Assembly: GCA_021202635.1 (NCBI GenBank)
Contig: JAJQCQ010000080.1
Span: 1-64,000, forward strand
DNA length: 64,000 bases
Source: Lachnospiraceae bacterium
GTDB taxonomy: Bacteria; Bacillota; Clostridia; Lachnospirales; Lachnospiraceae
Direction of reading: 5' to 3'
This document shows positions 13,749 through 62,694 of the stretch, in pieces (the stretch's first letter is position 1; each line of letters begins with the position of its first letter). A program made the position numbers and the translations under genes. Below the pieces are notes generated by a model. That model was not told where the DNA came from, made no database searches, and worked only from the letters and a program-made list of their open reading frames with translations.

Positions 13749-13804
13749 CGGCCGCGTCTGACGTTAGCCAGAAATGTTCCTTACGCGGCCGTGCGCATAA
13801 AACG
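13749..13804 (-). repeat. Structured post-terminator element, copy A
   Basis: CGGCCGCGT (13749-13757) pairs with ACGCGGCCG (13783-13791). An inner hairpin TCTGAC/GCCAGA lies inside, and GCGCATAAAA follows. The same architecture recurs at 46445-46503 and 62586-62644. In each case a terminator hairpin lies immediately beside the CATAAAA end, and a minus-strand gene ends beyond that hairpin. Confidence 0.55.
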
Positions 13805-13809
13805 CAGAA

Positions 13810-13836
13810 GGAGACGGGTTCCCCCGTCTCCTTTTT
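13810..13836. terminator. Intrinsic terminator after the GH31 gene
   Basis: GGAGACGGG (13810-13818) pairs with CCCGTCTCC (13823-13831) and is followed by TTTTT on the plus strand. It terminates GH31 and may also act for the minus-strand GGDEF gene ending at 13923. Confidence 0.85.
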
Positions 13837-13922
13837 GCGTGTATTCCTTTTCCAGAACCGTCCGCGGCAGATTTCAGTATAACACCGCGGTAAAAAAGCA
13901 AAGCCTTCTGCTTCGATCACTT

Positions 13923-15677
13923 TTACAGTACAATGCCCTGCCCCCACTCTATCATCTCTGTGATATCCCTGGTCGCCAGAACGATTGTCTGGTTGTCTTT
14001 CCCGGAAAAGCTGAAGCTGAATTTTTCATATTTTATTCCGGCCTCCGCCTGCCGTTCTGGTCGAATCAGGCAATAGACGCCGTATTCCCTCTTGTGATTG
14101 AGCTCTTTTCGAACGGTCAGCAGGCATGCTTTTTCAAGAAATTTGTCCGCATCCTCCTTCGCCAGGAATTCCCTGGCAAAGTGTTCCAGGTTCTCTTCAT
14201 ACGGCGCATCGTCCAATAACCAGGTCATACTGTCCGGAAGCGTCAGATTCCTGTACAGATGCGCCCGCTCTGTCCGGACATCGATCACGCTGATCGAACG
14301 ATAAGCCTCATTCAGGCGCGCCATCAGATCCATATCTTTTTCTGCCTTACGGCGTGCCCGCAGGCGCTCCGTCATAGACTGGTCAATATTCTGCGAATAA
14401 TAAATGATCTTTGTCGGAAAGCCCAGGGAATCCGAAGCCGTTTTCCAAAAGGCGGATTCTCTCCACTGACCGTTTTTCAGACGATAATCACAAATCACAT
14501 GATTTTCTCTGCGCAACTGTTTTTTCAGATTCGAAATACTCCCGACTTTTCTGCGCAGCTCACGAAAATCCTCCGAGACCGCATCATTACAAAAATGGTC
14601 ATTGCGTCTGGAATAAACCCCGCTGACCGGCTCACCGACACTGATACTCGTCTCGTTTTGCTTGACAATATGGTAAGAGTCCCGATCCAGGTCCGCAATC
14701 AGCAGCACCTCATAGGAATCTGTCAAAATGCTTACCAAAGAAGACATCTCATCGTGGTAGGTCTGCTCCACCACGCTGTGCTTATATTCCGGGTGCGCTT
14801 CATAAAACCGCTGCTTGTCCTCGTACATCCTGGTCTCTGCTTCGGCCGTCACACTCGCGATGTCATTGCCGGATCGCCAGACAAAACCCACGGCAGCACG
14901 CGGAAATCCCTCTTCATTCAGCAGCTTCTTAAATGCCGTGGCATTTTCTAAAAACACATCCTCCTCATCATCAATGCTGACCACCAGAAATTCATCCCCG
15001 CTGATCCGAAACGGCTCATATCGGTTAAACTGTTCGGCAAGCATAGCAGAAAATCCGCAGATCAGCTCATTGCCCTTGTCGTGTCCCAGTGTGTCATTGA
15101 CCACCTTCAGCCCGTTTAAGTCTGCGAACAGAACACCAATCGGACGCGGCGATGATTCATTCGTGACCATATCACACATAGAACGGTAGGAATACAGATT
15201 TTTCAATCCGGTCAGGGTATCAATCCGACAGAGGTATTCCATCTCCTTCTGTTCTTCAAACTCACGGATATAGGTATCATGGATGTCCTGTATGTACAAC
15301 ATCAGCGTCTGGTTTTCAGGCGTGTAGTCGCTTGCCTTCAGCAGCTCCATCGAAACCCAGCGGAAGCTGCCGTTCGTCCATCTCCGGTAGCGCATCCGCA
15401 GACATTCCTCGCTGTGCTCAAAATGCGCCTTTATCGTCTCAACGTTCGTAAAGCGCAGGTACGCGTCCACATCTTTCTCGTATACCTGTCCGGAGATCGC
15501 AAATTCCCGCAGTCAATCCGATATTTTCTGCGCATAACCATGATTTTCATTTTGTTCGGATTGATAAACCTTGATGTCAATATGTGTATCCGTCGAAAGA
15601 TTAATCTTCAAAATTTTATGATACGTTTCGGCAAGGATCCGCATGGCATCTTCCAGATAAAAAGCCATATTTTCCAT
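13923..15677 (-). pseudogene. GGDEF (diguanylate cyclase) protein gene with an in-frame TGA
   Basis: From an ATG at 15677 the frame reads MENMAFYLEDAMRILAETY..., then meets TGA at 15515-15513 (codon 55). It continues without a break for 529 more codons in the same frame. Just after the TGA come LREFAISGQVYEKDVDAY and a PAS-like fold, so a single domain spans the stop; TGG (Trp) would fit SD-x-LREF. Downstream are PAS (to about 140), a GGDEF domain with SGDEF at the active site and no clear RxxD inhibitory site, then two more PAS-like segments. A GTG at 15470 could start a shorter 515-residue product. It is either a nonsense mutation or a base error. Confidence 0.75.
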
Positions 15678-15776
15678 TGATTTTGCCTATTCTCTACAAA
15701 AAATAATCATCAGATCAGCAGACCGCAGATCTGCGTTTCGGTCAGCAACTGCTCGATGCATAACACGTCATATAAA

Positions 15777-16439
15777 TCACACCCGCCGCCGGTCGATCCT
15801 TCTCGAAATCCACATCCCGATCATCTGAATCAGCTGTGCCAGAATCACGAGTAAAATAACTGTCACCAGTAAAATTTTCGGCTGCCAGCGCTGATAACCA
15901 TAACGAAGGGCGATATCTCCCAGACCCCCGCCGCCGCAGGCGCCGGACATCGCAGAATAACCAAGAATCGTGGTCATGGCAATCGTCGCGTTGACTACCA
16001 GTGAAGTGCGTCCTTCCGGAATCAGCACCTTGCGGATGATCTCCCACACGCTCGCACCCATGCTCTGCGCCGCCTCAATCACGCCGCGGTCTACTTCCTT
16101 CAGAGAGGATTCCACCATACGCGCAATATAAGGCGCAGCGGCCACTGTCAACGGAACGATCGTCGCCGTCGCGCCATAGCTTTTTCCGACGATGAACTTT
16201 GTAAGCGGCCGAATCGTAATCATCAGAATCAGAAACGGCACACTCCGCAGAATGTTCGTAATCACATCCAGGATTTTATAAATGAACGGATTCTGTTTAA
16301 TTCCATCCGCCCCGGTCACAGTCAGCACCACGCCCATCGGAAGGCCGATGACATAGCCCAAAAAGGTAGACATACAGGTCATCCAGAGCGTTTCACCAAT
16401 ACCGTCGATAATCATCGAAATCGTTTTACTATCCAACAT
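15777..16439 (-). CDS. metI: D-methionine ABC importer permease MetI
   Basis: The 220-residue protein has about five membrane helices and the conserved cytoplasmic loop VIEAAQSMGASVWEIIRKVLIP, which couples to the ATPase (quoted region near 125-147; the key EAA residues are E and A at its start). Length matches the MetI family (about 217-225). The start overlaps the end of metN by 11 bases, so the two are cotranscribed and probably translationally coupled. It forms the methionine import channel with MetN and MetQ. Confidence 0.92.
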   Translation of the reverse strand: MLDSKTISMIIDGIGETLWMTCMSTFLGYVIGLPMGVVLTVTGADGIKQNPFIYKILDVITNILRSVPFLILMITIRPLTKFIVGKSYGATATIVPLTVAAAPYIARMVESSLKEVDRGVIEAAQSMGASVWEIIRKVLIPEGRTSLVVNATIAMTTILGYSAMSGACGGGGLGDIALRYGYQRWQPKILLVTVILLVILAQLIQMIGMWISRRIDRRRV

Positions 16440-17439
16440 AATGATCCAACTCCTCCACGGAAAGCCTCGCGTTTTTCAGCCAGGCAATCATCTTCTCCTG
16501 AAGCTGCTCATCCTCCGGCAGCTGCAATACCATCTCACCCTTTGCCACACCGTCCAGGTTCCGCGTATTCGCATAAAGGATGTTGACCGGGGACTTAAAC
16601 GCCAGCACCATATTTCCAATGACCGGTTCAAAGGACGAGTTTTCGGAAAAGACGATACGCACACACCGTTTTCCCTTCATCTCTGCCACATTCTCATAGC
16701 CCTGATAAATCAGGCGTCTGGCTTCCTTTGACTTCGGAGCCAGGAAGATGTCCTCCACCGTACCGTGCTCCACCAGATGCCCGTGGTCAATGATCGCCAC
16801 ATGGCTGCAGATCTCCTGTACAACCGCCATCTCATGCGTAATCACGACAATCGTGATCCCATACTTGCGGTTGATCTCCTTCAGAAGCTGCAGAATCGAC
16901 TTCGTCGTCTGCGGATCCAGCGCGCTCGTCGCCTCATCGCACAGCAGAATCTTCGGATCCGACGCCAGCACACGGGCGATGGCGACACGCTGCTTCTGTC
17001 CGCCGGAAAGCTGCGCCGGATAGGCGCTCGCTTTCTCCTCCAGATCCACGTCCTTCAGAAATTCCAGTGCCTTTTTGCGCGCCTCAGATTTCTTTACTCC
17101 GGCCAGCTCCATCGGAAAGCATACGTTGTCCAGCACATTCCGCTGCATCAAAAGATTAAAATGCTGGAAAATCATGCCGATATTTTTGCGCTTCTCCCGC
17201 AGTTCTTTATCCGAAAGGGAAGACAGATCCTGCCCGTCCACGATCACCGTCCCGGCCGTCGGCCGCTCCAGAAAATTCAGACAGCGCACCAGCGTACTCT
17301 TCCCCGCGCCGGACATACCGATGATCCCGTAAATATCGCCCTTATAAATGTCCAGACAGACGTCCGCGAGCGCGTGTACCTCTGTGTTTTTCTGCCGGAA
17401 TTCCTTGTCCACATGCTGTATTTTAATAATTGGTTCCAT
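16429..17439 (-). CDS. metN: Methionine ABC importer ATPase MetN with NIL domain
   Basis: The protein of about 336 residues has Walker A GMSGAGKSTL, signature LSGGQKQR, Walker B ILLCDEATSALD and the H-loop VITHEM. A C-terminal NIL (ferredoxin-like) domain at about 260-336 binds methionine and causes transinhibition in the family. The start was placed at the ATG at 17439 because GGAG lies five bases upstream. A longer in-frame reading from 17532 would add 31 residues without homology. It powers MetI/MetQ. Confidence 0.92.
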   Translation of the reverse strand: MEPIIKIQHVDKEFRQKNTEVHALADVCLDIYKGDIYGIIGMSGAGKSTLVRCLNFLERPTAGTVIVDGQDLSSLSDKELREKRKNIGMIFQHFNLLMQRNVLDNVCFPMELAGVKKSEARKKALEFLKDVDLEEKASAYPAQLSGGQKQRVAIARVLASDPKILLCDEATSALDPQTTKSILQLLKEINRKYGITIVVITHEMAVVQEICSHVAIIDHGHLVEHGTVEDIFLAPKSKEARRLIYQGYENVAEMKGKRCVRIVFSENSSFEPVIGNMVLAFKSPVNILYANTRNLDGVAKGEMVLQLPEDEQLQEKMIAWLKNARLSVEELDHYVG

Positions 17440-17601
17440 AACTGCTCCGTTCATATTCAGATGATGAAAAGCTGCCTGAAATCGGCTTCTTTTTTCATCA
17501 CGTATCATAGCACACTTGCATAGAAACTGCACGATTTTTTTTCACCATTTATAACCTGCGGTGAAGCCATATTCTTCAGGGGAGGACATTCCTATCCCTG
17601 C

Positions 17602-17637
17602 AAAAAGACCGCTCGATCTGTTTACAGAGAGCGGTCT
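17602..17637 (-). terminator. Intrinsic terminator between metQ and metN
   Basis: On the minus strand AGACCGCTC (17637-17629) pairs with GAGCGGTCT (17614-17606) and is followed by TTTTG. It lies after metQ and before metN, so it should make metQ mRNA more abundant than metNI mRNA, or separate the two units. Confidence 0.8.
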
Positions 17638-17728
17638 CTTTCGACTACCTATTGTATCCTGCCGGTTTTGCATCCGTAATTCCGGCTCCCCGGTCACATG
17701 CTTTGCAGCTGTGATCCCATAAGTTCTG

Positions 17729-18595
17729 TTATTCGGTCACCGCTTCTGTCTCGGTCTCCGCCTCCTCCACCGGCTCTTCATACGGCACTACGGAACCGTC
17801 ATAGGTCTCGGTGATAAATTCTTTGATCTCATCCGACTGCAGCACCGCTACCAGCGCCTGAATGCCTTCGTCTTCCTCATTACCGGCCTTCACTACAAGT
17901 ACATTCGCATAGGTCGAAGCCGCCTCAGAATCAGAAGTCTCAAATGCAATCGCATCAGAGGAGGAAAGTCCCGCGGACAGCGCATAGTTGCCATTCACGA
18001 CCGCAAACGCCACCTCGCTGGTGTACTGCGCGACCTGCGCCGCCTCTACCTCGATGATCTCAATGTCAAGGTCATCCTTAAAGGATACCACATCGTTCGC
18101 GGTAACGGTCAGGTCCGCGTCCTCCGGGAGAGTCAGCACCCCGTTCGCCTCCAGAAGCAGGAGCGCTCTCGCCTCGTTGGTCGTATCGTTCGGAACCGCG
18201 ATCACGTCGCCGTCCTCCAGATCATCCAGGCTGGACTTTGTGCCAATATAAATGCCCATCGGCTCATAATGAATCTTCGCCACGCTCACCAGATCCGTAC
18301 CCTGCTCTTCATTGAAGCTCTCCAGATACGGTGTGTGCTGGAAATAGTTCGCGTCAATCTCGCCCTCATCTACTACCAGGTTCGGCTGTACATAATCTGT
18401 GAACTCCGTCACCTGCAGATCCCATCCGTCCTCAGCCAGGATCTCCGCTGCCTTCTCCAGAATCTCTGCGTGCGGTGTCGGGGAAGCCGCTACGGTGATC
18501 ACCTTGTCCTCGTCTGCCGATGCCGTAACAGAAAGTCCCGCCACTGCCGTAACCGCCAGACTTACTGCCAGTAACTTCGCGATTGTCTTTTTCAT
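17729..18595 (-). CDS. metQ: Methionine-binding protein MetQ, without lipobox
   Basis: The 288-residue NlpA/MetQ-family solute-binding protein has Sec signal MKKTIAKLL... ending ASA-DE near residue 27. It shows family motifs such as ASPTPHAEIL, VDEGEIDANYFQH and VPNDTTNEARAL. No cysteine is visible anywhere, so the usual lipoprotein anchor is missing; signal peptidase I cleavage is likely. The last 16 residues are a Glu/Thr-rich acidic tail (EEPVEEAETETEAVTE). Order on the minus strand is metQ, terminator, metN, metI. It captures methionine outside the membrane and delivers it to MetNI. Confidence 0.9.
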   Translation of the reverse strand: MKKTIAKLLAVSLAVTAVAGLSVTASADEDKVITVAASPTPHAEILEKAAEILAEDGWDLQVTEFTDYVQPNLVVDEGEIDANYFQHTPYLESFNEEQGTDLVSVAKIHYEPMGIYIGTKSSLDDLEDGDVIAVPNDTTNEARALLLLEANGVLTLPEDADLTVTANDVVSFKDDLDIEIIEVEAAQVAQYTSEVAFAVVNGNYALSAGLSSSDAIAFETSDSEAASTYANVLVVKAGNEEDEGIQALVAVLQSDEIKEFITETYDGSVVPYEEPVEEAETETEAVTE

Positions 18596-18675
18596 AATGA
18601 TGTCCTCTCTTTCTCTGATAAAGCCAGATATAGTGCAGCCGCCAGGCGGCTGCCAGTTCGTTGTTTCTGTGCTAC

Positions 18676-18704
18676 ATGATAAACCCGGAAAGCGGATTCG
18701 TCAA
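18676..18704 (-). promoter_or_regulatory. Promoter of metQ
   Basis: Minus strand TTGACG, 17-base spacer, TATCAT, about 80 bases before the metQ start. Just upstream lie an inverted repeat TTATAA(7)TTATAA at 18727-18745 and TATAACCAGCTATAG. A similar TTTATAACCTGC occurs before metN. These could be regulator sites, but no regulator was identified. No SAM riboswitch or T-box is apparent. Confidence 0.7.
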
Positions 18705-18775
18705 ATTTTTTCTGACTATAGCTGGTTATAAGGAAAATTTATAACGCACATGGCTTATTTGCAAACTCCGATAAA

Positions 18776-19771
18776 TCATTCCGTCTTTACATACCTCTGA
18801 TTTCTGCTTTGTGGTTTATCCGGGATGGACATCCGAACAAGTCCCAGCTCTATCGCGGGATGAAGATAATTCCGGCGGAAAGTCTCTCTGGATTTTAATC
18901 CCAGTCTATCCATCAGAGTTTTCCCTGTATACGGAACGTTATATTCCATAACCCCCAGTAGTTTTCTGACATATTCGGACAGCTGCGAGCTTTCTTCATC
19001 CATCTGCACCGCGATATCATCCAGAATCGCATCAATCTGCGACAGCATAAATTCTATAAATGCGTTCGATTTTCCCTCCACATGACACCTTGCAATCGCA
19101 GCATAATATTTCTCCTGGAATCGCTCAATCTGACTTTCCAAAGGAATATATACAAAAACAGTTTTCCACTTTGAGAGAATCGCAGTTTGCCATAACCGCG
19201 CCATTCTGCCATTGCCGTCTGCAAATGGATGAATAAATACGAATTCATAGTGAAACACACAGCTAAGAATCAGCGGATGAATCTTGTTCCTCGATTCCTC
19301 CATCCAGCCAAAAAGGTCTTCCATAAGCTGCGGAACCATTCTGGCCGGCGGAGCCATAAAGATGCACTCATCGCCGTGGAATACTCCTTCCTCACCCCGA
19401 CGGAAAATACCGGATTCCTCCACAACATATTTTGTCATAATCCCATGAAACCGCTTCAGGTCTTCGATACTCCATGGATTTAGTTCATCCAGAAGTTCAT
19501 ATGCCGCATAAGCATTTTTTACTTCTTGAATCTCCTTCTGCTCGCCCAGCACAGTTTTTCCATTTATAACGTCCCTCACCTGCCCAAGTGTAAGAGAATT
19601 TGCCTCAATTTTCAGAGAGGAATGAATCGAACGGATTCGGTTATTCTTCCTCAGGTGCGGCTTAGAATCCAGGCTGCCAACCGCAGTAATCCTTCCGATT
19701 TTTTCCGAAACAGAAGCCACACAGGACAGCATTTCGTTTGTTATGCTAAAAGGCGGTTCATAATTCTCCAT
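18776..19771 (-). CDS. Fic-domain protein with N-terminal inhibitory motif
   Basis: The 331-residue protein has the Fic core HPFADGNGRMARLW near residue 187 with the catalytic His. An N-terminal SLKIEAN resembles the (S/T)xxxE(G/N) inhibitory helix of class II Fic proteins. A C-terminal winged-helix-like segment (about 265-330) follows. Family members transfer AMP or other groups to proteins; the target is unknown. The start was set at 19771, with GGAGGA eight bases upstream. It stands alone between metQ and the fructan cluster, with no antitoxin gene beside it, which agrees with self-inhibition. Confidence 0.88.
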   Translation of the reverse strand: MENYEPPFSITNEMLSCVASVSEKIGRITAVGSLDSKPHLRKNNRIRSIHSSLKIEANSLTLGQVRDVINGKTVLGEQKEIQEVKNAYAAYELLDELNPWSIEDLKRFHGIMTKYVVEESGIFRRGEEGVFHGDECIFMAPPARMVPQLMEDLFGWMEESRNKIHPLILSCVFHYEFVFIHPFADGNGRMARLWQTAILSKWKTVFVYIPLESQIERFQEKYYAAIARCHVEGKSNAFIEFMLSQIDAILDDIAVQMDEESSQLSEYVRKLLGVMEYNVPYTGKTLMDRLGLKSRETFRRNYLHPAIELGLVRMSIPDKPQSRNQRYVKTE

Positions 19772-19899
19772 TCTTCCTCCATATCTGCAAACGTAAATTC
19801 TCACTGTGAAGCGGATTCACGACTTGCGTATTATCTTGCTTATTTACTTGCTCATTATACCGCATATTGCCAAAGGATCAAGATGATTTTTTTATCAGA

Positions 19900-19935
19900 A
19901 AATGGCATTCGGTCCTGATATACCGAATGCCATTT
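19900..19935 (-). terminator. Terminator of the fructan operon
   Basis: AAATGGCATTCGG (19900-19912) pairs perfectly with CCGAATGCCATTT (19923-19935). On the minus strand it is followed by TCTGATAAAAAAATC rather than a clean T-run. It lies 21 bases past the GH32 stop. Confidence 0.7.
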
Positions 19936-19956
19936 CCAAATGCATTACTCTTATTT

Positions 19957-22356: not shown

Positions 22357-22529
22357 AGTTTCTGTCTACCCCCTGATTGTGGCGCAGTCTGTATCATAGT
22401 TCCATATGCACAGGTTCACGATACAGACTACTAATTCATTTGTGGCCAGCTGCTCGTTCCGCAATCTCTTTTTATACATTCATGTGAAACGAAGAATTCC
22501 CGACATTCCTCAGTCGCAGAATTTTGCTT

Positions 22530-24011: not shown

Positions 24012-24127
24012 ATATCCTTTTTCCTCTCTCAATGCTAATATAGCCAAAGACGGGCAGATTACAATATCCGCCCGTCTTCTTTCCATAATCTTATTGTTTA
24101 TGACCCGGGCACCAAAGTGGCATCATT

Positions 24128-25780: not shown

Positions 25781-25886
25781 GATTGTTTCCTCCTTATGAT
25801 ATGTTTGATTTTTGATTGTTCATTGATAAGTTCATTCGTTGCTGTTTTTCGTGTTATTTCACTCTGTCTTACTTTTCTATCTATCC

Positions 25887-25914
25887 TCTGCGCGGCACAA
25901 TCGGCTCGCGCAGA
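25887..25914 (-). terminator. Stem-loop between permease and binding-protein genes
   Basis: TCTGCGCG (25887-25894) pairs with CGCGCAGA (25907-25914). It lies in the 156-base gap before the binding-protein gene. No T-run follows directly, so it may stabilise or process mRNA rather than terminate. Confidence 0.5.
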
Positions 25915-25936
25915 AGAGAAACCGTAATTTTTCAAA

Positions 25937-26830: not shown

Positions 26831-26848
26831 TGTTCTTCCTCCTCCCTT

Positions 26849-27811: not shown

Positions 27812-27916
27812 AAGAATCCCTCCTTACTTTGATTCGCCCGGATGGCTGCAGAACCGTTCTTTTGATTTCACCAAATCAATTTCGAATCTTCCCTGCCCTC
27901 AGGCTTATCCTGTTTT

Positions 27917-27994: not shown

Positions 27995-28007
27995 ATCTGA
28001 TGACCGC

Positions 28008-28162: not shown

Positions 28163-28166
28163 CCGC

Positions 28167-41450: not shown

Positions 41451-41565
41451 TTTGTCTTATCTCCTTTTTTCATTTTTATAATAAGAACAGCCCGGCGGTC
41501 TTTTCATCACCAGGCTATTCTATGAGGAAATTATTATGAAAGAAAAAACGCAATTTTACTTTGTC

Positions 41566-46343: not shown

Positions 46344-46410
46344 GCTGCGAAAAATGAAGGGACAGAGCCAGGCTTTTTCTAAAACGTTTTCTTTTCCGCA
46401 GCCCTGTGCA
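46344..46410 (-). repeat. Possible diverged copy of the structured element
   Basis: GCTGCG (46344-46349) can pair with CGCAGC (46396-46401), followed by CCTGTGCAAT, similar to the CCTGCACATAAAA end of copy C. It is weaker than the other copies. Together with the hairpin at 46413 and copy B it fills the gap upstream of the LacI promoter. Confidence 0.35.
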
Positions 46411-46412
46411 AT

Positions 46413-46440
46413 CGGATAGGGGAGTTCTCTCTCCCCTATC
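46413..46440. terminator. Perfect 11-bp stem-loop
   Basis: GGATAGGGGAG (46413-46423) pairs with CTCCCCTATCC (46430-46440), loop TTCTCT. No T-run is adjacent. It stands between two structured elements. Confidence 0.5.
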
Positions 46441-46444
46441 CGCC

Positions 46445-46503
46445 TGCGCAAGCCGGGTGCGGCTTTAGCCGCAAAACTCCTTACACGGCTCTGTGCATAA
46501 AAA
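46445..46503 (-). repeat. Structured post-terminator element, copy B
   Basis: GCGCA pairs with TGTGC, GCCGGGT with ACACGGC, and an inner GCGGC/GCCGC hairpin lies within; GCATAAAA follows. This is the clearest example of the architecture shared with 13749 and 62586. It lies just past the terminator of the GNAT gene. Confidence 0.6.
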
Positions 46504-46529
46504 AAGGAGATGTCATCCCTGACATCCCC
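46499..46529 (-). terminator. Intrinsic terminator of the murB-whiA-Crh-GNAT genes
   Basis: On the minus strand GGGGATGTCA pairs with TGACATCTCC around GGGA and is followed by seven T. It lies 20 bases past the GNAT stop. Confidence 0.85.
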
Positions 46530-46549: not shown

Positions 46550-47053
46550 TTATTTTACCCGTTTTACGATTTCACGGTAATTCGCCCCAAAAAGGGAACG
46601 ATATACCTGCTCACATTCCTCAAATCGCAGCTCCGGCTGTGTGGAAAGCAATTCCATACAGACCCCGCCCTGGTCGATGCAGATCCCCGTCTCGTACAAA
46701 CCGTTATACAGAAAGAAAGCTCTTGCACCTTCGTCCTGTTCCTCCGTTTCCAGAAAAAACGGGCGGTCATCATACAGCTCCCGAATCAGTTCCAGTGCTG
46801 CACTTCCGAGGCCCTGCCCCCGATATTTTTCAGCAATTACAAAATAATCGAGCAAAACCAGTTTTTCTCCATATGCCAGTATTGCAAACCCGATTGGTTT
46901 TCTCTCTTCTCTGATCAGAAGAATCTCCATCTCCCCCATGGCAGTCCTGCGCTCTATCAGTGCAAACTCCTGCCGCTGCTGCGGCGGAAAAGTCTTCTGA
47001 TACAGCTCCAGGATGAATTTCTTATCCAGGCTGCCTGCCGTACAAATATCCAT
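46550..47053 (-). CDS. GNAT-family N-acetyltransferase
   Basis: The 167-residue protein has the acetyl-CoA-binding motif A pattern YRGQGLGSAALE near residues 78-90 and the flanking strands of the GNAT fold. The acceptor is unknown. It lies 13 bases after the Crh-like gene and before a strong terminator, so it is probably the last gene of that transcript. Confidence 0.85.
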   Translation of the reverse strand: MDICTAGSLDKKFILELYQKTFPPQQRQEFALIERRTAMGEMEILLIREERKPIGFAILAYGEKLVLLDYFVIAEKYRGQGLGSAALELIRELYDDRPFFLETEEQDEGARAFFLYNGLYETGICIDQGGVCMELLSTQPELRFEECEQVYRSLFGANYREIVKRVK

Positions 47054-48361: not shown

Positions 48362-48396
48362 CGCATCTCACCTCTCAACCGAAACCAGAATCCCGC

Positions 48397-49380: not shown

Positions 49381-49420
49381 GAAATCCTCCAAACCCGTAA
49401 CTGTTCCGTCCTGTTACCTG

Positions 49421-50623: not shown

Positions 50624-50657
50624 TTCTTTTTTCCTCCTGCCAGTGTTTCATATTCAA

Positions 50658-53756: not shown

Positions 53757-53822
53757 AATACCTCGCATCCTTACACATTCACTTCTGCGCTTTTCTCCGC
53801 GCCGCAGGCTTATGTGACTGAC

Positions 53823-53880
53823 GGTTACTGCTCACGCCCCGACCACACACCTGCTGCGCAGGCAGGATGTGACCTGTAAC
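53823..53880. repeat. GGTCACA-type palindromic element, copy 3
   Basis: GTTACTGCTCAC pairs with GTGACCTGTAAC around a loop with its own CCTGC/GCAGG hairpin. The arm GTTACAGGTCACA, seen on the minus strand, is the same as in the marR leader at 11216. It lies between addA and the GtrA-YfhO gene. Confidence 0.6.
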
Positions 53881-53906
53881 GGCTGACGTTTCATCCGAAG
53901 TCCACA

Positions 53907-56900
53907 CTACATGTGGATTTCCTCCCGCAGAGAAAACGAATAAATCACCCGGTCACAGACCTTCCTCCCCGTCAGGCGTTCCAGCGCCTTCTGATAATAG
54001 TCAATCTGCGTCCGATAGCGTTTTACCAGAGCAGAACCATCCGAAACCCGATCTGTCTTGTAATCGACGACCGTAATCTGTCCGTCTTCGATAAACCAGG
54101 CGTCAATAATCCCCTGCACCAGTATGATTTCCTGTGACAAAAGCGCGTTGCCGCCCGTCTCCGGATTCTTCGCCGTGCGATCCCCGTCTGACTCGCCATC
54201 TAAAGAAAGCTGCCCATAAATCTCATCGGCCGGCACGCCCAGTACAAATGGACGCTCCCGGAAAAGTGTCTCCTCCTGTGCCGCCTTCTTCATCCTCCGC
54301 CCAATCCGGGAGTGCAGGAATGCAGAAATGTCACTCAATCGAATCATCGCGGCGTCTTCCTCGGACATTTTACCACAACTTATCAATTCTTCCAACCGGA
54401 AACGTAATTCTTCTTTCTCAGAAAAACTTAAATTTTCCATAAAGGTATGATATGCCGTGCCCCGATCGGCGCCGCCTGCCTGCGGACGCTTTTCCGATCC
54501 GCCCGTATGGTTCGTGCGGGCAGGAACCGGCTCTTCCTTCTGCTCTGCCGCTTCGGGCGGGCATGAAACCGGCTGTGCATCAGCGCTTTCGCCCGCGCGC
54601 ATCACAAACCGGGGAATCAGCGGCACTACAGCTTCCTCCGCGTACAGCTCCTGTGTGTCATTCTCTTCCATTCGCTGCGACATTTTTTTCAGTTCAGAAA
54701 CGGTGACCTTGGCGGGAATTTTCCGGTTTGCCTCATACGGATATTCTGTTTCAAACACCCGCTGCAGGTAATCTCTTGCCTGCTCATCCTGACAGAGATC
54801 CGGATTCATCTGCAAAAGATCACGCAGGGACAAAAGCTCCTCCGTGCGCTCCCGGGTTTCTTCCGCCGCATTCCCGGAAGGGGCGGCGAGGAAGAGATGG
54901 AATCTTACCTCTGAAGCTTTCCCGGACGATTGCGCCAAGTGTTCTCTGTCATCCGTACCGTTTCCCCTGTCAGCTGCGTAAGGCAGGTCAAGCGTAAGAT
55001 TGCCCCCGCCAGTATGCATCATATAATTGTTCCCGACCGACGAATCCAGCAGCGCCGGAACCACCCAATCCAGATAAGAAGATGCACCCGAGAGCCAGGA
55101 GTATCCCAATGTTCCATTTTTCGCCAGAGCCGCCGCCATCTTCCAGGTCGACAGCCGTTTTTCCAGATTTTTCACACTTCCGGTCAGAATCAGCTTTTCC
55201 TTTGCCCGTGTCATCGCCACATACAGGACGCGCAGCTCTTCGCCGAGATTTTCTGTACGCAGCTTCTGCTGTATCACCTTTTTGGGGAGCGTAGCCTGGC
55301 GCATCCGGGGCATTTCATCCGACCGCAGGCCCTCCGTATTTTCCGGATCGTGAGCGGTATCCGTCTGCACATGCATCACAGAATCGCAGGCGATCCCCCA
55401 TTCGGGGTGCATGACGACACTGCTGCGCACATCCGTTTCATTGAACTGCTTTCCCATCCCGCAGACAAACACAATCGGAAACTCCAGTCCTTTACTTTTA
55501 TGAATGCTCATCAGACGCACCGTATCGTCCGCCTCTGACGCAAGATTTGCCTCGCCATAATCCACCTCGTATTTCTGCAGGTTCTCAATATAGCGCACAA
55601 AATGATACAGTCCGCGGAAGCTGGTCGCCTCATAGGCAATTGCCTTTTCTACGAGCATATCCAGATTTGCCCGCCGCTGCCGTCCGGCGGGAAGCGCGGA
55701 GGCGTATTCGCCATAACCGGTTACGTCCAGCAGCTCCCACAAAAGCTGATGCACAGGCGTATACGCACTTTTTGCGCGCAGCATCTCATAGGTATCAAAA
55801 AAATCGGTCAGCTTCCGCGCGGTTTCCGTATCCGGAAACCGTTCCCGATATTGCTGGCAGCAGTCATAATAGGCGCATTTCCGGTCCGGCTCTCCGGCAA
55901 GGCGAATCTGGGCCAGCTCCTCGTCATTGATGTGTCCGATCGCGCTTCGCAGCACTGCTGCGAGCGGAATATCCTGCAGCGGATTATCCAGGATCTGCAA
56001 ATAAGAAAGAACCACCCGCACCTCCGCCGTCGAAAAATAGCCCTTCTGCGAACCGGTAAAACAGGGAATTCCCATAGCAGAAAGAACCTCGCCAAAGGTT
56101 TCCGCCCAGCCGCTGACCGTTCGAAGCAGAATCACGATATCCCCATAGCGCGCCGGGCGAAGCACGCCGCTTTCCTTATCCAGCACCGGCATCGTGCCGA
56201 CCAGCTCCCGGATGCGGCGGCCGGTCATCTTCGCCTCTTCCCTTCGCAGGCTCTCCGCAGAGGAATCGTTCTCCCCCGCGCCGCCATCCAGCAAATGAAG
56301 CTCCGTCGTTCCCACACTGGTCCCATCCGCCAGAAGCGGCGCCTCTGGAAACTTCGCACCCGGATACAGTGCCGCGTCGTCATCGTAGATGACCCCGCCG
56401 AGCGGCTCCGTCATAATTCTGCGAAAAACAAAATTCACCGATTCGAGCACCTGCGGGCGGCTGCGGAAATTGCGGTGCAGATCAATACGGCAGCCGGGAG
56501 CGTCTTTTTCGTCTGTCCTCGGAAGCGTCTCTTCAGAAGGAACGGAACCCTCCTCCTCCGATGCGTAAGGGCGATAGCGATGAAACTTCTCCATGAACAA
56601 TTCCGGGCGTGCCAGCCGGAACCGGTAAATGCTCTGCTTGACGTCTCCTACCATAAAGCGGTTATGCGCACCGACACCCTTTCCGGAGACGCTCTCAAGG
56701 ATCAGCTCCTGTACCAGATTGCTGTCCTGATACTCATCAATCAGAACCTCCTCAAACGTTTCCGCGTACTCAAGCGCCACCGCCGTAGGCACCAGTTTCC
56801 GGGTGTCCTCGCTGCCGGACGCAGGGCTTTGCCTGTCTGCGGTTTCCGAAGCGGCCGTCTCCTCCCGTCTCACAAGCGCATGCAGCGCCAGATGCTCCAT

Positions 56901-58070
56901 ATCGCCAAAATCCAGAATATTCCGCTCCGTCTTTTTTTCTGAGAGCCGTTTCATGAACGTTTCCGTCAGCTTCGTCAGAACGCGTACCGAAACACCGCTG
57001 TTGTCGTAGTCCGCCTGCAGTGCCCTGCGATCGTCATAATAATACTGATCGCGAAGGGCGACAATCTGGTCTTTGCAGTCGGCTCGCATCGCCTGCACCT
57101 GCTGCTTTTTCTCCTCGGAAATCCGTTCGTCCTTTTTGGTGCCAAGCCGTGCGAAGCTTCCCAGCCTGCGGAATGCTTCCAGATAGCCCTCAAATGAGCC
57201 GCCCCGCATCAGCTCATCCACCAGCTCCAGGTCAGAAATCAGCGTTTTTTCATAAGGATACGGCCCATCCGTTTCCCGCGCGACGCGCAGAGCCGCTTCC
57301 AGCTGCCCGCGGATATCCGCCAGCCGCACAGCCGTATCGGATTCGATAAAAGCCAGCCAGGCCGGCCGCTCCGATTCTTCTGTAAACGCGCTTTTTTCAT
57401 ACGCTCTGCGGCATTCCCGCAGCCAGTCCTCCGGGAAAGGCTGTCCCAGCGCGAAATGATAAATCTGTAAAATCATCTCCTCTACCCGGGCGTCGTCTTT
57501 TCCGGTCGCGAACTGTTCCAGAAATTCCGTAAACTCCCGGCTGTCACCGGCCTGTTCCGAGGCTGCCGCCTCCCCCGTGCCATCCTGCTTTTGTCCGGCA
57601 TTGCCGGAGTCTCCGGCCGTGCATGCATATGCCTCATCGACGATCTCTTTCACTGCCTCCTGCTCCAGCAGCGTCACCTCCCCCGGGTCCGCAATGCGGA
57701 AAGCCGGATCGATCCCGATGGTCTGAAAATGATTGCGGAGCACATGCAGGCAGAAGCTGTGAATCGTTGTAATTTTCGCGTTGTGCACCAGCACAAGCTG
57801 TCTCTGCAAATGGACATTTTCCGGGTCCTGTTCGGCCCGCGCCTCCAGGGCATCCCGGATCCGCCCCCTCATTTCCGCCGCCGCCGCGTTCGTAAAGGTA
57901 ACAACCAGAAGACGGTCGATGTCAACCGGATTGGTCTCATCCGTAATCATTTTTAAGATACGCTCGACCAGAACCGCCGTCTTACCGGAACCCGCCGCCG
58001 CGGAAACCAGAATGTTGCAGCCACGCGCATCAATGACCTGCTGCTGTTCCTTTGTCCATGTCACTGCCAC
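53907..58070 (-). CDS. addA: ATP-dependent helicase/nuclease subunit AddA
   Basis: The 1387-residue protein is a UvrD-type helicase: Walker A AAAGSGKTAVLVERI, motif II VLIDEYQDSN, and motifs near RFRLARPELF and TRAKEKL. A RecB-type nuclease domain at the C-terminus has VVDYKTDRV as the metal/Lys site. Together with AddB it resects double-strand breaks to chi-like sites for RecA loading. The start is GTG at 58070, with GGAGG nine bases upstream, inside the end of addB (41-base overlap), so the two are coupled. It is longer than the Bacillus protein (1232). Confidence 0.95.
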   Translation of the reverse strand: MAVTWTKEQQQVIDARGCNILVSAAAGSGKTAVLVERILKMITDETNPVDIDRLLVVTFTNAAAAEMRGRIRDALEARAEQDPENVHLQRQLVLVHNAKITTIHSFCLHVLRNHFQTIGIDPAFRIADPGEVTLLEQEAVKEIVDEAYACTAGDSGNAGQKQDGTGEAAASEQAGDSREFTEFLEQFATGKDDARVEEMILQIYHFALGQPFPEDWLRECRRAYEKSAFTEESERPAWLAFIESDTAVRLADIRGQLEAALRVARETDGPYPYEKTLISDLELVDELMRGGSFEGYLEAFRRLGSFARLGTKKDERISEEKKQQVQAMRADCKDQIVALRDQYYYDDRRALQADYDNSGVSVRVLTKLTETFMKRLSEKKTERNILDFGDMEHLALHALVRREETAASETADRQSPASGSEDTRKLVPTAVALEYAETFEEVLIDEYQDSNLVQELILESVSGKGVGAHNRFMVGDVKQSIYRFRLARPELFMEKFHRYRPYASEEEGSVPSEETLPRTDEKDAPGCRIDLHRNFRSRPQVLESVNFVFRRIMTEPLGGVIYDDDAALYPGAKFPEAPLLADGTSVGTTELHLLDGGAGENDSSAESLRREEAKMTGRRIRELVGTMPVLDKESGVLRPARYGDIVILLRTVSGWAETFGEVLSAMGIPCFTGSQKGYFSTAEVRVVLSYLQILDNPLQDIPLAAVLRSAIGHINDEELAQIRLAGEPDRKCAYYDCCQQYRERFPDTETARKLTDFFDTYEMLRAKSAYTPVHQLLWELLDVTGYGEYASALPAGRQRRANLDMLVEKAIAYEATSFRGLYHFVRYIENLQKYEVDYGEANLASEADDTVRLMSIHKSKGLEFPIVFVCGMGKQFNETDVRSSVVMHPEWGIACDSVMHVQTDTAHDPENTEGLRSDEMPRMRQATLPKKVIQQKLRTENLGEELRVLYVAMTRAKEKLILTGSVKNLEKRLSTWKMAAALAKNGTLGYSWLSGASSYLDWVVPALLDSSVGNNYMMHTGGGNLTLDLPYAADRGNGTDDREHLAQSSGKASEVRFHLFLAAPSGNAAEETRERTEELLSLRDLLQMNPDLCQDEQARDYLQRVFETEYPYEANRKIPAKVTVSELKKMSQRMEENDTQELYAEEAVVPLIPRFVMRAGESADAQPVSCPPEAAEQKEEPVPARTNHTGGSEKRPQAGGADRGTAYHTFMENLSFSEKEELRFRLEELISCGKMSEEDAAMIRLSDISAFLHSRIGRRMKKAAQEETLFRERPFVLGVPADEIYGQLSLDGESDGDRTAKNPETGGNALLSQEIILVQGIIDAWFIEDGQITVVDYKTDRVSDGSALVKRYRTQIDYYQKALERLTGRKVCDRVIYSFSLREEIHM

Positions 58071-61000
58071 CTGCCGTCACCTCCTTCCCGTCCGGGAAAC
58101 GTCTGCTGTCGCTCCTCTTGCGGCTGTCCGGAAACCTTTTGCTATCGCTTCCCTCATGGTTGTCCGGAAGCCCTTTGGTATCGCTCCCCTCACGCTTGTC
58201 TGCCCCTGACAGACGTTCAAAGACTTCCGCCGCTGTCAGCTGCGGCTCCCGCTTTTCACAGCGGCCGGGGATCTTGCGGTCAAAGCCGCATACATCCGCG
58301 TAAAGGCAATAATCACAGGCACTCCTGTTTTTGTCCGCAAACGGCCGCGCCTCAATGGTTCCACTCAGGATTTCCTCTCCCATCCTGCAAAGAAGCTCCG
58401 TCACATATCCGGAGAGTGCTTCAAACTGTTCTGTCGTCACCACACTCGAAGTCGCCTTGAGCGTCCCGTCTTTCTTCCATCCTACAGGGATTACCAGAGA
58501 ATCTCCGCTCATCGCCCCGTCAAACAGACGCAGCACCGACGGAGCGCCGTTCACCAGGCCATTGGGCCGCATTTTCTTCAAAAGAGTCTCACGGACTCTC
58601 CCGGAATCCTCATCCTTTTCCAATACCGGGTCCTGCATCCGGTGATAAAAAACACCGGCCGGAACGACTTTTTTGCCCGGATGCAGCTTTCGCTCCATCT
58701 CCAGCGCCGCATTCAGATAGACGATCAGCTGCATCTGCAGTCCATAGTAAAGAGAGACCGGGTCAAACTGCGTCATACCGGATTTATAATCGACCACCTT
58801 CACATAGACCGTATCCTCCGTCTGGGCGGTATCAATCCGGTCAATTCTCCCCTGCAGACGGATCTGTCCGCCATCGCCCAGAGGTACCCTCGTCGCCTCC
58901 AGATGATCCGTGTCCGCAAAGGAAATCTCAAACCCTTCCGGCCGGAACTTCCCGGCCTTCATCTGCTCGCGCATCACCCATACCGTACGCCGCAAAATCC
59001 GTTTCAGACGCCGGATCGTATATTCATCGCGGGCGCTCGCATGCAAGATACCGTCTCCATAGGCCTCCGCCACTTGATCCACACACTGGTCCATCCGCCT
59101 GGCCTGCTCCTCATAAGGGCATTCTCCCGGATCAATCCCCTCTACAAACATCTGGCGCGAAAAAACCTCGATGGATTCGTGAATCAGTGTCCCCAGGTCG
59201 GCCGCCTGCAGACCATATACCTCCCGCTCCTGCAGCCGCAGTCCGTAGGAAGCAAAATGGGAAAATGCGCAGCCGGCAAACAGCTCCAGGCGCGTGACGC
59301 TCGCCGACATTCCCCGAGCAACGCTGTTTTGAGCCAGCACCCCGTAAAGCTCCTTTGCCGTCTGTGCCTCCAAATGCTCTGTATCCGGCACTCTTCCCCG
59401 GAGAAAGGCTGCGCCTGCAAGCGTGCGCACCCGCTCACGATACGCCACGTCTCCAAGATACAGCCGGAATAATTCCAGCCATGCACGCGAATCCGCATAC
59501 GGCTCCTGCAGGTTTCTCTGACCGGCAGAGGCTCCTGTATCATTTTCTTTGCTCCGGCCGTCAGCAGATTTTTCCATGCTTCGTGCCTCCTGCAGCCCAT
59601 GCAGCAGATACAGCATTCCGTTCTCTTTTGAAGTCACCTGGGAAAGCTGCGTTCCCGCATCCTGCTCCCGCTGAATTTTTATTTTTGGAAAAAGCCGCCC
59701 GATCACCGAAACCAGATAGGATGGCCGCATCGCCGTCCCCTCCCCGCTGCTTAAGCACCAGGACAAATACAGCCGGTCCTGCGGTTTCGTCAGATTCTGA
59801 TAGAGATAAAACCGCTGAATATAGCTGTTCTCCCGCGCGGAGGGCGCCAGGCTGGCTCCGGCATTTAAGAGGATTTCCCGCTCCGTATCGGAGACAATCC
59901 CGCCCCCATCCCCATGAGAGGGCACCCAGCCGTCATTCAAACCAAGGAAAAACAGAACCTTTATATTTGCCAGCCGCGAACGGCGGATATCGCCCGCCAG
60001 CACCTGATCGATGCCCGGCGGAATGATCCCGATTTTTGCTTCCGAAAGTCCTGCGTCCAGAATCTCCGAGAATTCTCCGCAGTCCATCTGTTCTTCTCCC
60101 AGCAGCTCCACCATCTCATCCAGCAGTCCGATCAGAACCGGATAAACCTGCCGATATTCCGAGGAAAGCTCGCCGACCCGGGGTTCCATATGCTTCATCT
60201 GCTGCTGCACCTGGCAGTCCGCCAGCAGGCCATACAGCGCCTGCGCATACACAGCAAGCGGCTGGTCCTTCTCCCGCATGACCTCCGCGAACGAACCGAC
60301 ACAATCCAGGAACCGAACGCGCAGGGAATTATACAAATCCAGACCTGCCAGAAGAGGCGCATCTTCTGCGTCCTCTGCAATGACTGCATTTTCCGCCTGC
60401 CCAGGCGGTCCATCCGGGCAGGTCACCGTGCGCAGACGGTCCGGACACCAGGTCCACTCTTCTTCCCATAGTCTGTGTCCGCGGATACCCACCGCGATCA
60501 CATAGTTTTCCAGCCGGTCTGTCTCGTCCGCGGACAGTCCTGCCAGACCGGTACGCAGAAAACGGAATACGCTCTCCCGGGAAAAATCATCCCGCACCAT
60601 CGCCAGCGCTCCGCGCACAAATTCCAGACAGGGATTCAGAAGGATTCCCCGTGTTTCATCCACAAAAGCCGGAATTCCATAGGCCGGAAAAATATTTTTG
60701 ATGTAATCCCCATATGCGCTCAGGTCGCCCGCAATCACCGCAATCTCACGATAACGGTAATGCCCTTCCCGCACCAGGTGCGAAATCGTCCGCGCCGCAA
60801 AATGCACCTCCTGCGCCGGGGATGAAAGCTCATGAAGCGAAATCTCATCCGATTCTCCGCCGTACGGAAGCTGCTTTTTCCGAAACAGATTCTCTTCCAG
60901 ATGCCGCAGGGCTCCCTCCCGGGAAAAACGCGGAAGTCCATCAAGCACAATCGGTTCCTCATACCCATGCGTGCCGCAGCGCTCCGCGACTCCCCTGATC

Positions 61001-61758
61001 AGGCGGCGGCTCGGTGCGAACAGCTCGTGCTCCCTGATTTCACCAAAAAAGGATTCCCGCGCATCAATCGTTACCGTCAGATAAACCATCGGGCATACAG
61101 CCAGAAGCTCCTCCAGAACAGTGAGCTGCGACGGAGTAAATCCGGCATAGCCGTCAAACGCGAGCACACTGCGCCGAAGGAGCGGCGATTTCCCCGCTAC
61201 CCGGGCAAGCGCCTCCATCAATTCCTCCGGTTTCATAAAACGATCCCGCTGATATTCCAGGAAAGCCCGGTAAAGCACCCGGATATCTTCCAGCTTGGCG
61301 TGCAGAAGAGGCCTGTTTTCCACGGATTCCAGCATACATTGCAGATCATAGTCCGATATCTCATACTGCATCAGCTCTGAGAGGATGGATTTCACTTCCG
61401 AAACATATCCGCTGCGGTTCATGCGCGAGCCAAGCACCTTCAGATGGTCCTTTTGCTGCTCTGCTACCCTGCGCAGCATCAGATTTTTGCCGGTTTCCGT
61501 CAGAATTGTCCGCCGGTCGGCCCCTACTTCCTCGAACACGCGATGCGCCAGCCGCCGAAAGCTCAGAACATCGATGTTCATAATGCCGCCATCCGGATGC
61601 AGCAGCACCAGATCCCGCTGCGTCTGCATCGTAAACTGCTCCGGCACAATCACCAGAAAGCTGCGCTCCGGGTGCCGCTTTGCTTCTTCGATTAACGTTT
61701 GATACAGGAACCGCGATTTCCCGCTCCCGGAATTTCCAAAAATAAACTGTAATGCCAT
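58030..61758 (-). CDS. addB: ATP-dependent nuclease subunit AddB
   Basis: The 1242-residue protein has a Walker A-like FGNSGSGKSRFLYQ at the N-terminus, a helicase-like body and a C-terminal nuclease with VVDYKSGMTQFD. Cysteines in LFAGCAFSHF and CDYCLYADVC fit the four-Cys iron-sulfur staple of AddB. The last 55 residues are a tail with 12-residue repeats not expected in the family. The promoter is at 61792-61819. It starts the addB-addA operon. Confidence 0.95.
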   Translation of the reverse strand: MALQFIFGNSGSGKSRFLYQTLIEEAKRHPERSFLVIVPEQFTMQTQRDLVLLHPDGGIMNIDVLSFRRLAHRVFEEVGADRRTILTETGKNLMLRRVAEQQKDHLKVLGSRMNRSGYVSEVKSILSELMQYEISDYDLQCMLESVENRPLLHAKLEDIRVLYRAFLEYQRDRFMKPEELMEALARVAGKSPLLRRSVLAFDGYAGFTPSQLTVLEELLAVCPMVYLTVTIDARESFFGEIREHELFAPSRRLIRGVAERCGTHGYEEPIVLDGLPRFSREGALRHLEENLFRKKQLPYGGESDEISLHELSSPAQEVHFAARTISHLVREGHYRYREIAVIAGDLSAYGDYIKNIFPAYGIPAFVDETRGILLNPCLEFVRGALAMVRDDFSRESVFRFLRTGLAGLSADETDRLENYVIAVGIRGHRLWEEEWTWCPDRLRTVTCPDGPPGQAENAVIAEDAEDAPLLAGLDLYNSLRVRFLDCVGSFAEVMREKDQPLAVYAQALYGLLADCQVQQQMKHMEPRVGELSSEYRQVYPVLIGLLDEMVELLGEEQMDCGEFSEILDAGLSEAKIGIIPPGIDQVLAGDIRRSRLANIKVLFFLGLNDGWVPSHGDGGGIVSDTEREILLNAGASLAPSARENSYIQRFYLYQNLTKPQDRLYLSWCLSSGEGTAMRPSYLVSVIGRLFPKIKIQREQDAGTQLSQVTSKENGMLYLLHGLQEARSMEKSADGRSKENDTGASAGQRNLQEPYADSRAWLELFRLYLGDVAYRERVRTLAGAAFLRGRVPDTEHLEAQTAKELYGVLAQNSVARGMSASVTRLELFAGCAFSHFASYGLRLQEREVYGLQAADLGTLIHESIEVFSRQMFVEGIDPGECPYEEQARRMDQCVDQVAEAYGDGILHASARDEYTIRRLKRILRRTVWVMREQMKAGKFRPEGFEISFADTDHLEATRVPLGDGGQIRLQGRIDRIDTAQTEDTVYVKVVDYKSGMTQFDPVSLYYGLQMQLIVYLNAALEMERKLHPGKKVVPAGVFYHRMQDPVLEKDEDSGRVRETLLKKMRPNGLVNGAPSVLRLFDGAMSGDSLVIPVGWKKDGTLKATSSVVTTEQFEALSGYVTELLCRMGEEILSGTIEARPFADKNRSACDYCLYADVCGFDRKIPGRCEKREPQLTAAEVFERLSGADKREGSDTKGLPDNHEGSDSKRFPDSRKRSDSRRFPDGKEVTAGGSDMDKGTAAGH
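58090..58197 (-). repeat. Three 36-bp tandem repeats in the addB tail
   Basis: GTCCGG recurs at 58090, 58126 and 58162, and GTCTG at 58198, each 36 bases apart. The units encode 12-residue blocks of the form REGSDTKGLPD, HEGSDSKRFPD and RKRSDSRRFPD. They are in frame and alter only the length of a charged tail, so copy number could vary between strains. Confidence 0.75.
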
Positions 61759-61791
61759 CCCGACGCCTTCCTCCCCTGCCGCAATGAATTT

Positions 61792-61819
61792 ATCATAACA
61801 CCCTATTTTTTTGTGTCAA
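61792..61819 (-). promoter_or_regulatory. Promoter of addB-addA
   Basis: Minus strand TTGACA (61819-61814), 16-base spacer, TATGAT (61797-61792), with GGGGAGGAAGG before the start codon at 61758. Confidence 0.75.
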
Positions 61820-61943
61820 GCTCTTTCGGACGGCAGCCCTTCCTTTTTCTTAAATATTTCGTCACACTTTAGACATATACTTTTGATAAATTTGTAAAAA
61901 AGTGAAAGCAGAAGTTTTCTCTTTTGGATATCGTAAGGAAAGG

Positions 61944-62513
61944 ATGAAGATTATGAGAAGAAAATATCTGGCATTTTTATTAGGAATGGCGCTCTCCCTC
62001 ACATCTGTCTGTGCGTTTGCTGAGGAGGAGACAGAGACAGATACCTATGATGTTCGCTTCGGAAGAGTCGAAGCAGTCGTCAGCGACAGTGTGATTCTGG
62101 TATCCGCAGGGGAACTGGTCGAGGACGAATCGGACAGTACACTCGCAACGCTCACGCTGGATGGTATCATCTATGAGCTGACCTTTGCGGACGACGCGAC
62201 AGGCGCACAGCTTGTGGAGCAGAAAACCGTTACGATAGAAGAAGCATCGGAAGACGCTGTGGCTGAGACCGAAACCGAACTGGCGGAAACCACAGACGAC
62301 GCAGAAGAAGAGACCGGCAGCGACACAGACGACGCGGCGGACACAGATGCAGAAGAAGAAACCGAAACCGAGACTGAGACCGAAGAGGAAACAGAAGAAA
62401 CGGAAGAGATCAGCCTGGCAGACCTGCAGGTGGGAGATATTATAGAGTATACCATCCATCTGGACGGTGAAGACCTTGTGGTTTCCTTTACTCTGGTCGG
62501 CGCGGAAGGTTAA
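61944..62513 (+). CDS. Small secreted protein with acidic Thr/Glu insert
   Basis: The protein of about 189 residues has a Sec signal (MRRKYLAFLLGMALSLTSV..., cleavage near AFAEEE). Residues about 35-90 form a beta-rich segment (RFGRVEAVVSDSVILVSAG). A stretch of about 55 residues is almost only Glu, Thr, Ala and Asp. The closing segment (ISLADLQVGDIIEYTIHLDGEDLVVSFTLVG) looks like the other half of the same small beta-barrel. The two halves recall DUF5666-type OB folds with the acidic part inserted. Starts at 61944 and 61953 are both near AAGGAAAGG. No function is known. Confidence 0.7.
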   Translation: MKIMRRKYLAFLLGMALSLTSVCAFAEEETETDTYDVRFGRVEAVVSDSVILVSAGELVEDESDSTLATLTLDGIIYELTFADDATGAQLVEQKTVTIEEASEDAVAETETELAETTDDAEEETGSDTDDAADTDAEEETETETETEEETEETEEISLADLQVGDIIEYTIHLDGEDLVVSFTLVGAEG

Positions 62514-62585
62514 CCTTGTATAACCATTCTGAAGAGTTGCTATACAAAAATCGAGCAGGAGGAGGCTTGCCAACCCCTGCTCGTC

Positions 62586-62644
62586 TGTGCGGGCTGCATC
62601 CGGCGGCAGCCGGAAATTACCTCTCGCAGCCCTGCACATAAAAA
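62586..62644 (-). repeat. Structured post-terminator element, copy C
   Basis: TGTGC pairs with GCACA, GGGCTGC with GCAGCCC, and inner CCGGC with GCCGG; ATAAAA follows. The single strand between inner hairpin and outer stem is AAATTACCTCT, similar to AAATGTTCCTT and AAAACTCCTT in copies A and B. Confidence 0.6.
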
Positions 62645-62649
62645 TCACA

Positions 62650-62694
62650 CGGGTTCCGGAAGGCGGTGTTTCTCCGTCTTCCGGAACCCGTTTT
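62650..62694. terminator. Bidirectional intrinsic terminator
   Basis: CGGGTTCCGGAAG (62650-62662) pairs perfectly with CTTCCGGAACCCG (62678-62690), followed by TTTT on the plus strand and GTGTGATTTTT on the minus strand. It ends the acidic-protein gene and valS, which converge here. Confidence 0.85.

Follow-up and report, generated by a model that had tools for sequence, protein, structure and literature searches.

Eukaryotic short interspersed nuclear elements (SINEs) are moved by the target-primed reverse transcription of long interspersed nuclear elements (LINEs), and group IIC introns favour terminators. An extract of PMC10190682 describes a DNA stem-loop as the target recognised by group IIC introns, one of PMC6006769 places a GT[AG]G tetranucleotide at the hairpin foot of REP and REPIN sequences, and one of PMC10969869 presents the pneumococcal BOX, RUP and SPRITE as short intergenic repeats occurring in clusters. 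Here we describe a family of repeats met in a 64,000-nucleotide stretch of a Lachnospiraceae bacterium genome (assembly GCA_021202635.1, contig JAJQCQ010000080.1, positions 1 to 64,000; hereafter the window). Its units are about 90 nt long and non-coding, with two hairpin-rich parts, A and B, and they start, in one fixed orientation, directly behind the T-run of an intrinsic terminator. We propose, with moderate confidence, that they are non-autonomous mobile elements that insert behind terminators, most likely by target-primed reverse transcription. Literature searches covering titles and abstract openings returned no description of such an element.

The family resembles eukaryotic SINEs in being short, non-coding, without a protein and present in high copy number, in its insertion adjoining a T-run and in its mostly one-ended truncation. 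It differs in that the unit is bacterial and has two hairpins, its target is a terminator hairpin with T-run, it forms tandem arrays, no partner element is identified and one clean site shows no evident target duplication. With group IIC introns it shares the choice of a DNA stem-loop as target, but it encodes no protein and has no Rfam ribozyme match, Rfam scans of the window and of copy-bearing loci returning no match to the catalytic RNA domains of group II introns; an intron of this kind reverse-spliced T-first would, moreover, be expected to lose the end opposite to that lost by our units. REP and REPIN sequences, moved by TnpA-REP, are likewise short structured intergenic repeats with many copies and clusters, whereas our unit is fixed behind terminators and Y1 genes do not appear to track its copies; the GT[AG]G foot occurs in 0 of 18 units on either strand within the outermost 6 nt. 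Miniature inverted-repeat transposable elements (MITEs) and BOX, RUP and SPRITE are also short, intergenic and clustered, but our unit has one kind of target, no evident target duplication and no matching inverted ends, its ATGCRCA and CTCGAT termini not being inverted repeats when the 18-unit alignment is read by eye. We file the family as a variant of the small non-autonomous mobile elements, SINE-like in operation if the RNA route set out below is right.

Units are read here T-first, that is, on the strand following the T-run, which within the window is the minus strand. A full unit runs TTTTA then TGCRCA, stem, AAGGAATWTTT, inner hairpin, stem, GCGC(A/G), hairpin B and CGAT. Part A comprises an outer stem (TGCGC/GCGCA), a covarying stem, the one-sided loop AAGGAATWTTT and the inner hairpin; part B is a second hairpin, of two main types (CGAGCAGG and CGGATAGGGG), that terminates in CGAT. 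Eighteen full units were aligned with MAFFT without being fitted to any structure, and 13 columns are invariant despite differing stems. RNAalifold finds 23 pairs in this alignment, 11 of them with double changes; 95.9% of 413 cells are paired and 41 are doubly changed, against at most 51.3% paired, 3 doubly changed pairs and 7 doubly changed cells when the structure is slid along the alignment. Shuffled controls reached 11 doubly changed pairs in 3 of 500 cases and the covariation score in 0 of 500, while the further pair types (24) were matched by 108 of 500 shuffles and give no evidence of covariation. The stems covary across the family, as an initial annotation of the window had claimed; compensatory changes, whose absence would have told against that claim, are present. 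Four copies folded on both strands gave z-scores of -3.9 to -8.2, and the minimum-energy fold is the two-part structure in seven of the eight folds.

Structure more conserved than sequence, together with tandem units, is what a cassette with an attC-like site moved by an integron integrase would also display, but no core-site pattern is visible by eye at the unit ends and we regard this origin as highly improbable. In a variant form, A-C-B, a further hairpin of about 50 nt (GTCTACGCTTCGCTTCGGTCGTTGC..GCAGCAAC) separates A from B (L092:1001-1141, L125:1001-1143 and L129:1001-1142), and most A...B cases spaced by about 50 nt hold this structured insert.

A covariance model built from the 18 full units (R1) and the 18-unit alignment define the copies in the window. 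These are listed with their neighbours, genes being assigned by Pfam and terminators read from the sequence; G000 is the window's own genome and G035 a sister genome about 96% identical to it.

13747..13797, minus strand: truncated unit, part A only, without hairpin B; begins TGCGCACGG, ends GGCCGGC; R1 match 13720-13801, 56.4 bits
13803..13838, minus strand: terminator hairpin of the GGDEF gene, directly before the 13749 unit
13923-15470, minus strand: GGDEF protein gene
41489..41516, minus strand: terminator hairpin with no unit in the window; a full unit lies at the orthologous place in G035
46397..46410, minus strand: remnant of an older unit, TGCACAGGGCTGCG, distal to the 46445 full unit; present in G035 too
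46411..46501, minus strand: full unit (46445 site), parts A and B, B type CGGATAGGGG..CCCCTATCCGAT; R1 90.9 bits, in the 18-unit alignment
46506..46529, minus strand: terminator hairpin of the GNAT gene
46550-47053, minus strand: GNAT protein gene
62550..62642, minus strand: full unit (valS site), parts A and B, B type CGAGCAGGGG..CTCCTGCTCGAT; R1 90.3 bits, in the 18-unit alignment
62649..62690, minus strand: valS terminator hairpin
62739-63998, minus strand: valyl-tRNA synthetase gene (valS)

The initial annotation had placed a recurring element at 13749, 46445 and 62586, and all three sites are borne out in the sequence. Its claim of one design throughout holds for the full units at 46445 and 62586, whereas the 13749 copy is truncated to part A. 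Each unit starts after the terminator T-run of a minus-strand gene (GGDEF, GNAT and valS), in agreement with the minus-strand reading offered there. The separate sequence that the annotation saw beside the terminator dissolves on this reading: in plus-strand TGCRCATAAAA the end of the element is joined to the A-run that faces the T-run of the minus-strand terminator.

Placement behind terminators was scored in the own genome by hairpin score and T count in the 70 nt before each unit, using 79 copies (80 listed of 85 R1 matches). A hairpin precedes 60 of the 79 and a run of at least 5 T in 10 precedes 58; both signs are present in 48, leaving 31 without both. At the far flank, read towards the unit, both signs occur in 2 of 79, and at random positions in 44 of 1,996. 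The distance from hairpin to unit ranges from 0 to 16 nt among the 48 copies with both signs, which suggests that the position is set by the T-run and not by a fixed measure from the hairpin. Copies in another genus behave alike when inspected by eye, 19 of 21 lying behind a hairpin and T-run; one is a second tandem unit and one (L301) does not.

The terminators include those of regulatory leaders. In 4 of 40 copy-bearing loci scanned with Rfam a leader lies directly before the unit on the same strand, and the unit sits between the conditional terminator and the regulated gene:

L025:1302-1594: FMN leader
L112:1001-1364: T-box leader
L283:2061-2371: lysine leader
L043:1230-1592: cobalamin leader

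At several places the terminator hairpin before the unit resembles hairpin B (upstream of L101:1001-1094, minus strand; upstream of L033:1501-1594, minus strand; G030:C35, reverse complement, 79669). Judged by this resemblance, such terminators are possibly older units reduced to B and acting as target.

The family is large and patchily distributed. With the best 150 of 1,723 candidates scored, R1 finds at least 123 matches in the own genome at E<=1, at least 93 of them at E<1e-3; a DNA query with the 13749 copy gives 35 at E<=0.1. Copies thus exceed chance in the covariance search that the initial annotation had named as a check. At E<=1e-3 R1 matches 28 of 60 relatives; 27 of these are among the 36 members of the genus that were searched and one lies outside it, and counts per relative range from 0 to at least 70. 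In a tree of a valS fragment from 30 genomes, 23 of them with a copy count (root for drawing only; high-copy G006, G027 and G029 left out), a well-supported split sets 10 of 11 high-copy genomes (at least 44 copies) apart from the eleventh, G007, and G012 (12 copies) is a low-copy member of the side that holds the ten. An order-wide R1 search of 295 genomes with stricter filters (14 candidates scored per genome, E<=1e-5) matches 7, the own genome included, and gives nothing in the other 288. One of the matching genomes, G226, belongs to another genus and has at least 14 matches; TwoAYGGAY RNA matches also occur in its unit-bearing loci (L306:1736-1898, plus strand; L283:3192-3358, minus strand). 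A pattern scan of named genomes returned 69 stretches labelled as Lachnospiraceae or Clostridiales metagenome-assembled genomes, and viral contigs gave 0 matches to a 44-base pattern.

No unit reaches the gathering cut-off of any Rfam family, and membership of such a family was rejected. Rfam 15 gives 0 matches in the window; in eight copy-bearing loci at E<=1 it gives two tRNAs and a sub-threshold PrrB_RsmZ match (22.1 bits, cut-off 44), none on a unit, the last adjoining the 13749 unit without overlapping it; in 40 further copy-bearing loci it gives nine matches, none overlapping a unit. A different interspersed repeat, of about 85-190 nt and with many own-genome matches, was met at L170:602-792.

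Comparison of orthologous places points to mobility. At one clean pair the site is empty in G000:C2, reading CTATCCTTTTTCTTTT-GTTTTATTTGC, and filled in G035:C133, reading CTATCCTTTTTCTTTT followed by TGATGCACAGG...CTGCTCGAT and then TATTATTTGC; no target-site duplication of the kind made by MITEs is evident at this one site. Window position 41484 has a unit in G035 alone, with a flank less clean than that of the C133/C2 pair. In G035 the 46445 site is occupied by a different subfamily, whose unit is cut in the closing stem and precedes the same old remnant; at the valS site G035 retains only TTTTATGTGCAGG, and G030 holds another subfamily, cut in B. The seven copies on contig C15, compared with G035, divide into two shared, one of another subfamily, one eroded and three not comparable. 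Differing subfamilies, remnants and empty places indicate that sites are hit repeatedly and that copies decay. On the same contig, a 70-nt stretch with inverted ends GTTACAGGTCAC (G000:C15:94290, in L165) is present in G000 and absent from G035, and from its sequence looks like another small mobile repeat.

These comparisons bear on whether the units are, rather than selfish mobile elements, a 3' element of the cell, regulatory or protective, that selection maintains and that duplication and recombination spread. Conserved structure, fixed place and orientation, and the two orthologous copies common to G000 and G035 would suit such a role, but orthologous places are also found empty, eroded or with other subfamilies, and copies lie behind unrelated genes and four kinds of regulatory leader; we consider it improbable. 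A mobile element targeting terminators, one of the possibilities raised in the initial annotation, is supported by the filled/empty pair, the patchy copy number in the genus, near-identical copies in another genus and the enrichment of hairpin and T-run at one flank.

Truncated copies mostly retain the T-run end. Among copies encountered incidentally, the B end is missing from 21 and the T-run end from 3 (L260, L116 and L247; p 2.8e-4), the 21 being 7 at a T-run and 14 second units of arrays. This set keeps 24 of 60 rows and excludes copies used to choose a locus; also dropped were A-C-B variants (including L235), pieces of near-full or model-chosen units, L274 as an orthologous duplicate, chance matches of short length, the seed copy at 13749, L035 and L177 as a decayed pair, and L230, which was unclear. 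In 800 kb of contiguous DNA from G032, G008, G013, G001 and G030, nine copies lack the B end and one the T-run end (p 0.021), or 10 against 2 (p 0.039) with two unclear clusters added, one per kind; here 66 clusters were found, 13 labelled full, and weak short matches, reverse B-hairpin images, A-C-B variants and near-full units were dropped. A full-length query gives 19 matches in G226. Among them, six are full copies that are nearly identical (92-100%) and three are truncated: L309 (1-60, 100%), L313 (1-27, 96%) and L314 (1-21, 100%), all with the T-run end (3 against 0). The four cases without a T-run end are B only, and none was seen to lose just a stretch of that end. A larger contrast, 56 against 10 among loci chosen by part A, was set aside, as the pattern and the DNA query select part A. 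One-ended truncation with the T-run end kept, the behaviour of a SINE-like retroposon, is thus found in sets sorted by hand. In some units the cut lies in the 5' arm of hairpin B and an AGGAGG remains, followed within a few bases by an ATG (L116:1001-1076, plus strand; L112:3094-3173, minus strand; L268:5446-5515, plus strand); to judge from its position, this remnant may act as a Shine-Dalgarno sequence for the gene that follows.

Copies that begin at the T-run and break off before B imply a synthesis that set out from the 3' end of the T-run on a template of opposite sense. That synthesis could be DNA copying with no dedicated enzyme: a nascent strand stalled behind the terminator hairpin would switch its T-run end to the A-run beside another unit, copy that unit up to hairpin B and then switch back. 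Template switching of this kind accounts for the polarity, for an insertion site without evident target duplication and for the absence of a tracking reverse transcriptase or Y1 gene, but leaves unexplained both the regular CGAT ends of full copies and the structure kept through sequence turnover; we see it as a minor possibility that deserves attention.

For target-primed reverse transcription, which we prefer, we infer an RNA intermediate. An antisense RNA (5' B, A, ...UGCGCAUAAAA 3') ending in UGCGCAU(A)n, whether produced with that end or cut back to its stable hairpins, would act as template, its A-rich 3' end annealing to the terminator T-run. A reverse transcriptase supplied in trans would extend the 3' end of the T-run along this RNA, so that the new unit would lie directly behind the T-run in a single orientation without evident target-site duplication, and early stops would leave copies with the T-run end and without the B end. 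Terminator and T-run survive insertion, so further units can land at the same place and build up tandem arrays. On this basis the family may tentatively be called a bacterial SINE, that is, a structured non-coding RNA retroposed in trans that would use terminator T-runs, those of riboswitch leaders included, as primers, its arrays recording successive hits.

The enzyme was sought among the genomes of the genus. Matches to PF00078 (RVT_1) occur in 34 of 47, including all nine high-copy genomes (at least 44 copies) of at least 94% completeness, with only a fragment in G000. All four reverse transcriptase proteins tested (from G001, G035, G032 and the zero-copy G016) exceed the TIGR04416 cut-off, making them group II reverse transcriptases; they are candidates, none tied to the element. 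In this sequence-based analysis neither the RNA, a master copy nor a reverse transcriptase linked to the element was found, a motif scan of the collected loci gave no larger autonomous version with a gene between A and B, and the search for a copy with a promoter of its own gave no excess of promoters beside full copies.

Movement in trans as DNA, by a single-strand transposase (IS200/IS605-like or REP-like Y1) favouring terminator hairpins and with truncation as later decay, draws on a class known, from an extract of PMC6006769, for hairpin elements without evident target duplication, and Y1 genes (PF01797) are present in 24 of the 47 genomes. They fail as a predictor of copy number, with no match in high-copy G006, G014, G027, G029, G030 and G035 (several of these assemblies being incomplete). 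None of the 18 units has GT[AG]G at its end on either strand, and near-identical truncated copies are not expected under this route, which we hold to be unlikely.

Several observations weigh against the preferred reading of mobile elements retroposed through an RNA. Reverse transcriptase presence does not predict copy number: the complete genome G012 has 12 copies and no RVT_1 match, and G016 has 11 RVT_1 matches and no unit. Antisense promoters are not in excess beside 160 full copies (6 at score >=8 against 5.4 expected), and mispairs show no strand asymmetry (G.U 122 against A.C 101 cells). The T-first RNA of the 46445 copy departs from the consensus in its minimum-energy fold, while the opposite strand adopts it. 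The filled and empty C133/C2 pair has no outgroup, so gain in G035 and precise loss in G000 both fit. Sorting of the truncation sets was manual, the count of 21 against 3 falls to 7 against 3 (p 0.34) if only copies immediately at a T-run are taken, and selection keeping the terminator could bias which end erodes in old copies; near-identical truncated copies are less easily explained in that way. The lack of promoter excess and of mispair asymmetry, with the lack of an Rfam match, also leaves a trans-acting small RNA, as the initial annotation's small RNA class would imply, so far without support.

Landing behind terminators explains how about 100 copies of a tiny non-coding element can be carried without gene disruption. 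If the RNA route is true, bacteria would possess a SINE-like retroposon, and riboswitch and T-box leaders would gain sequence between terminator and gene. The copies in these uncultured gut bacteria look like tiny parasitic sequences that insert behind terminators, perhaps by RNA copying like that of animal SINEs.

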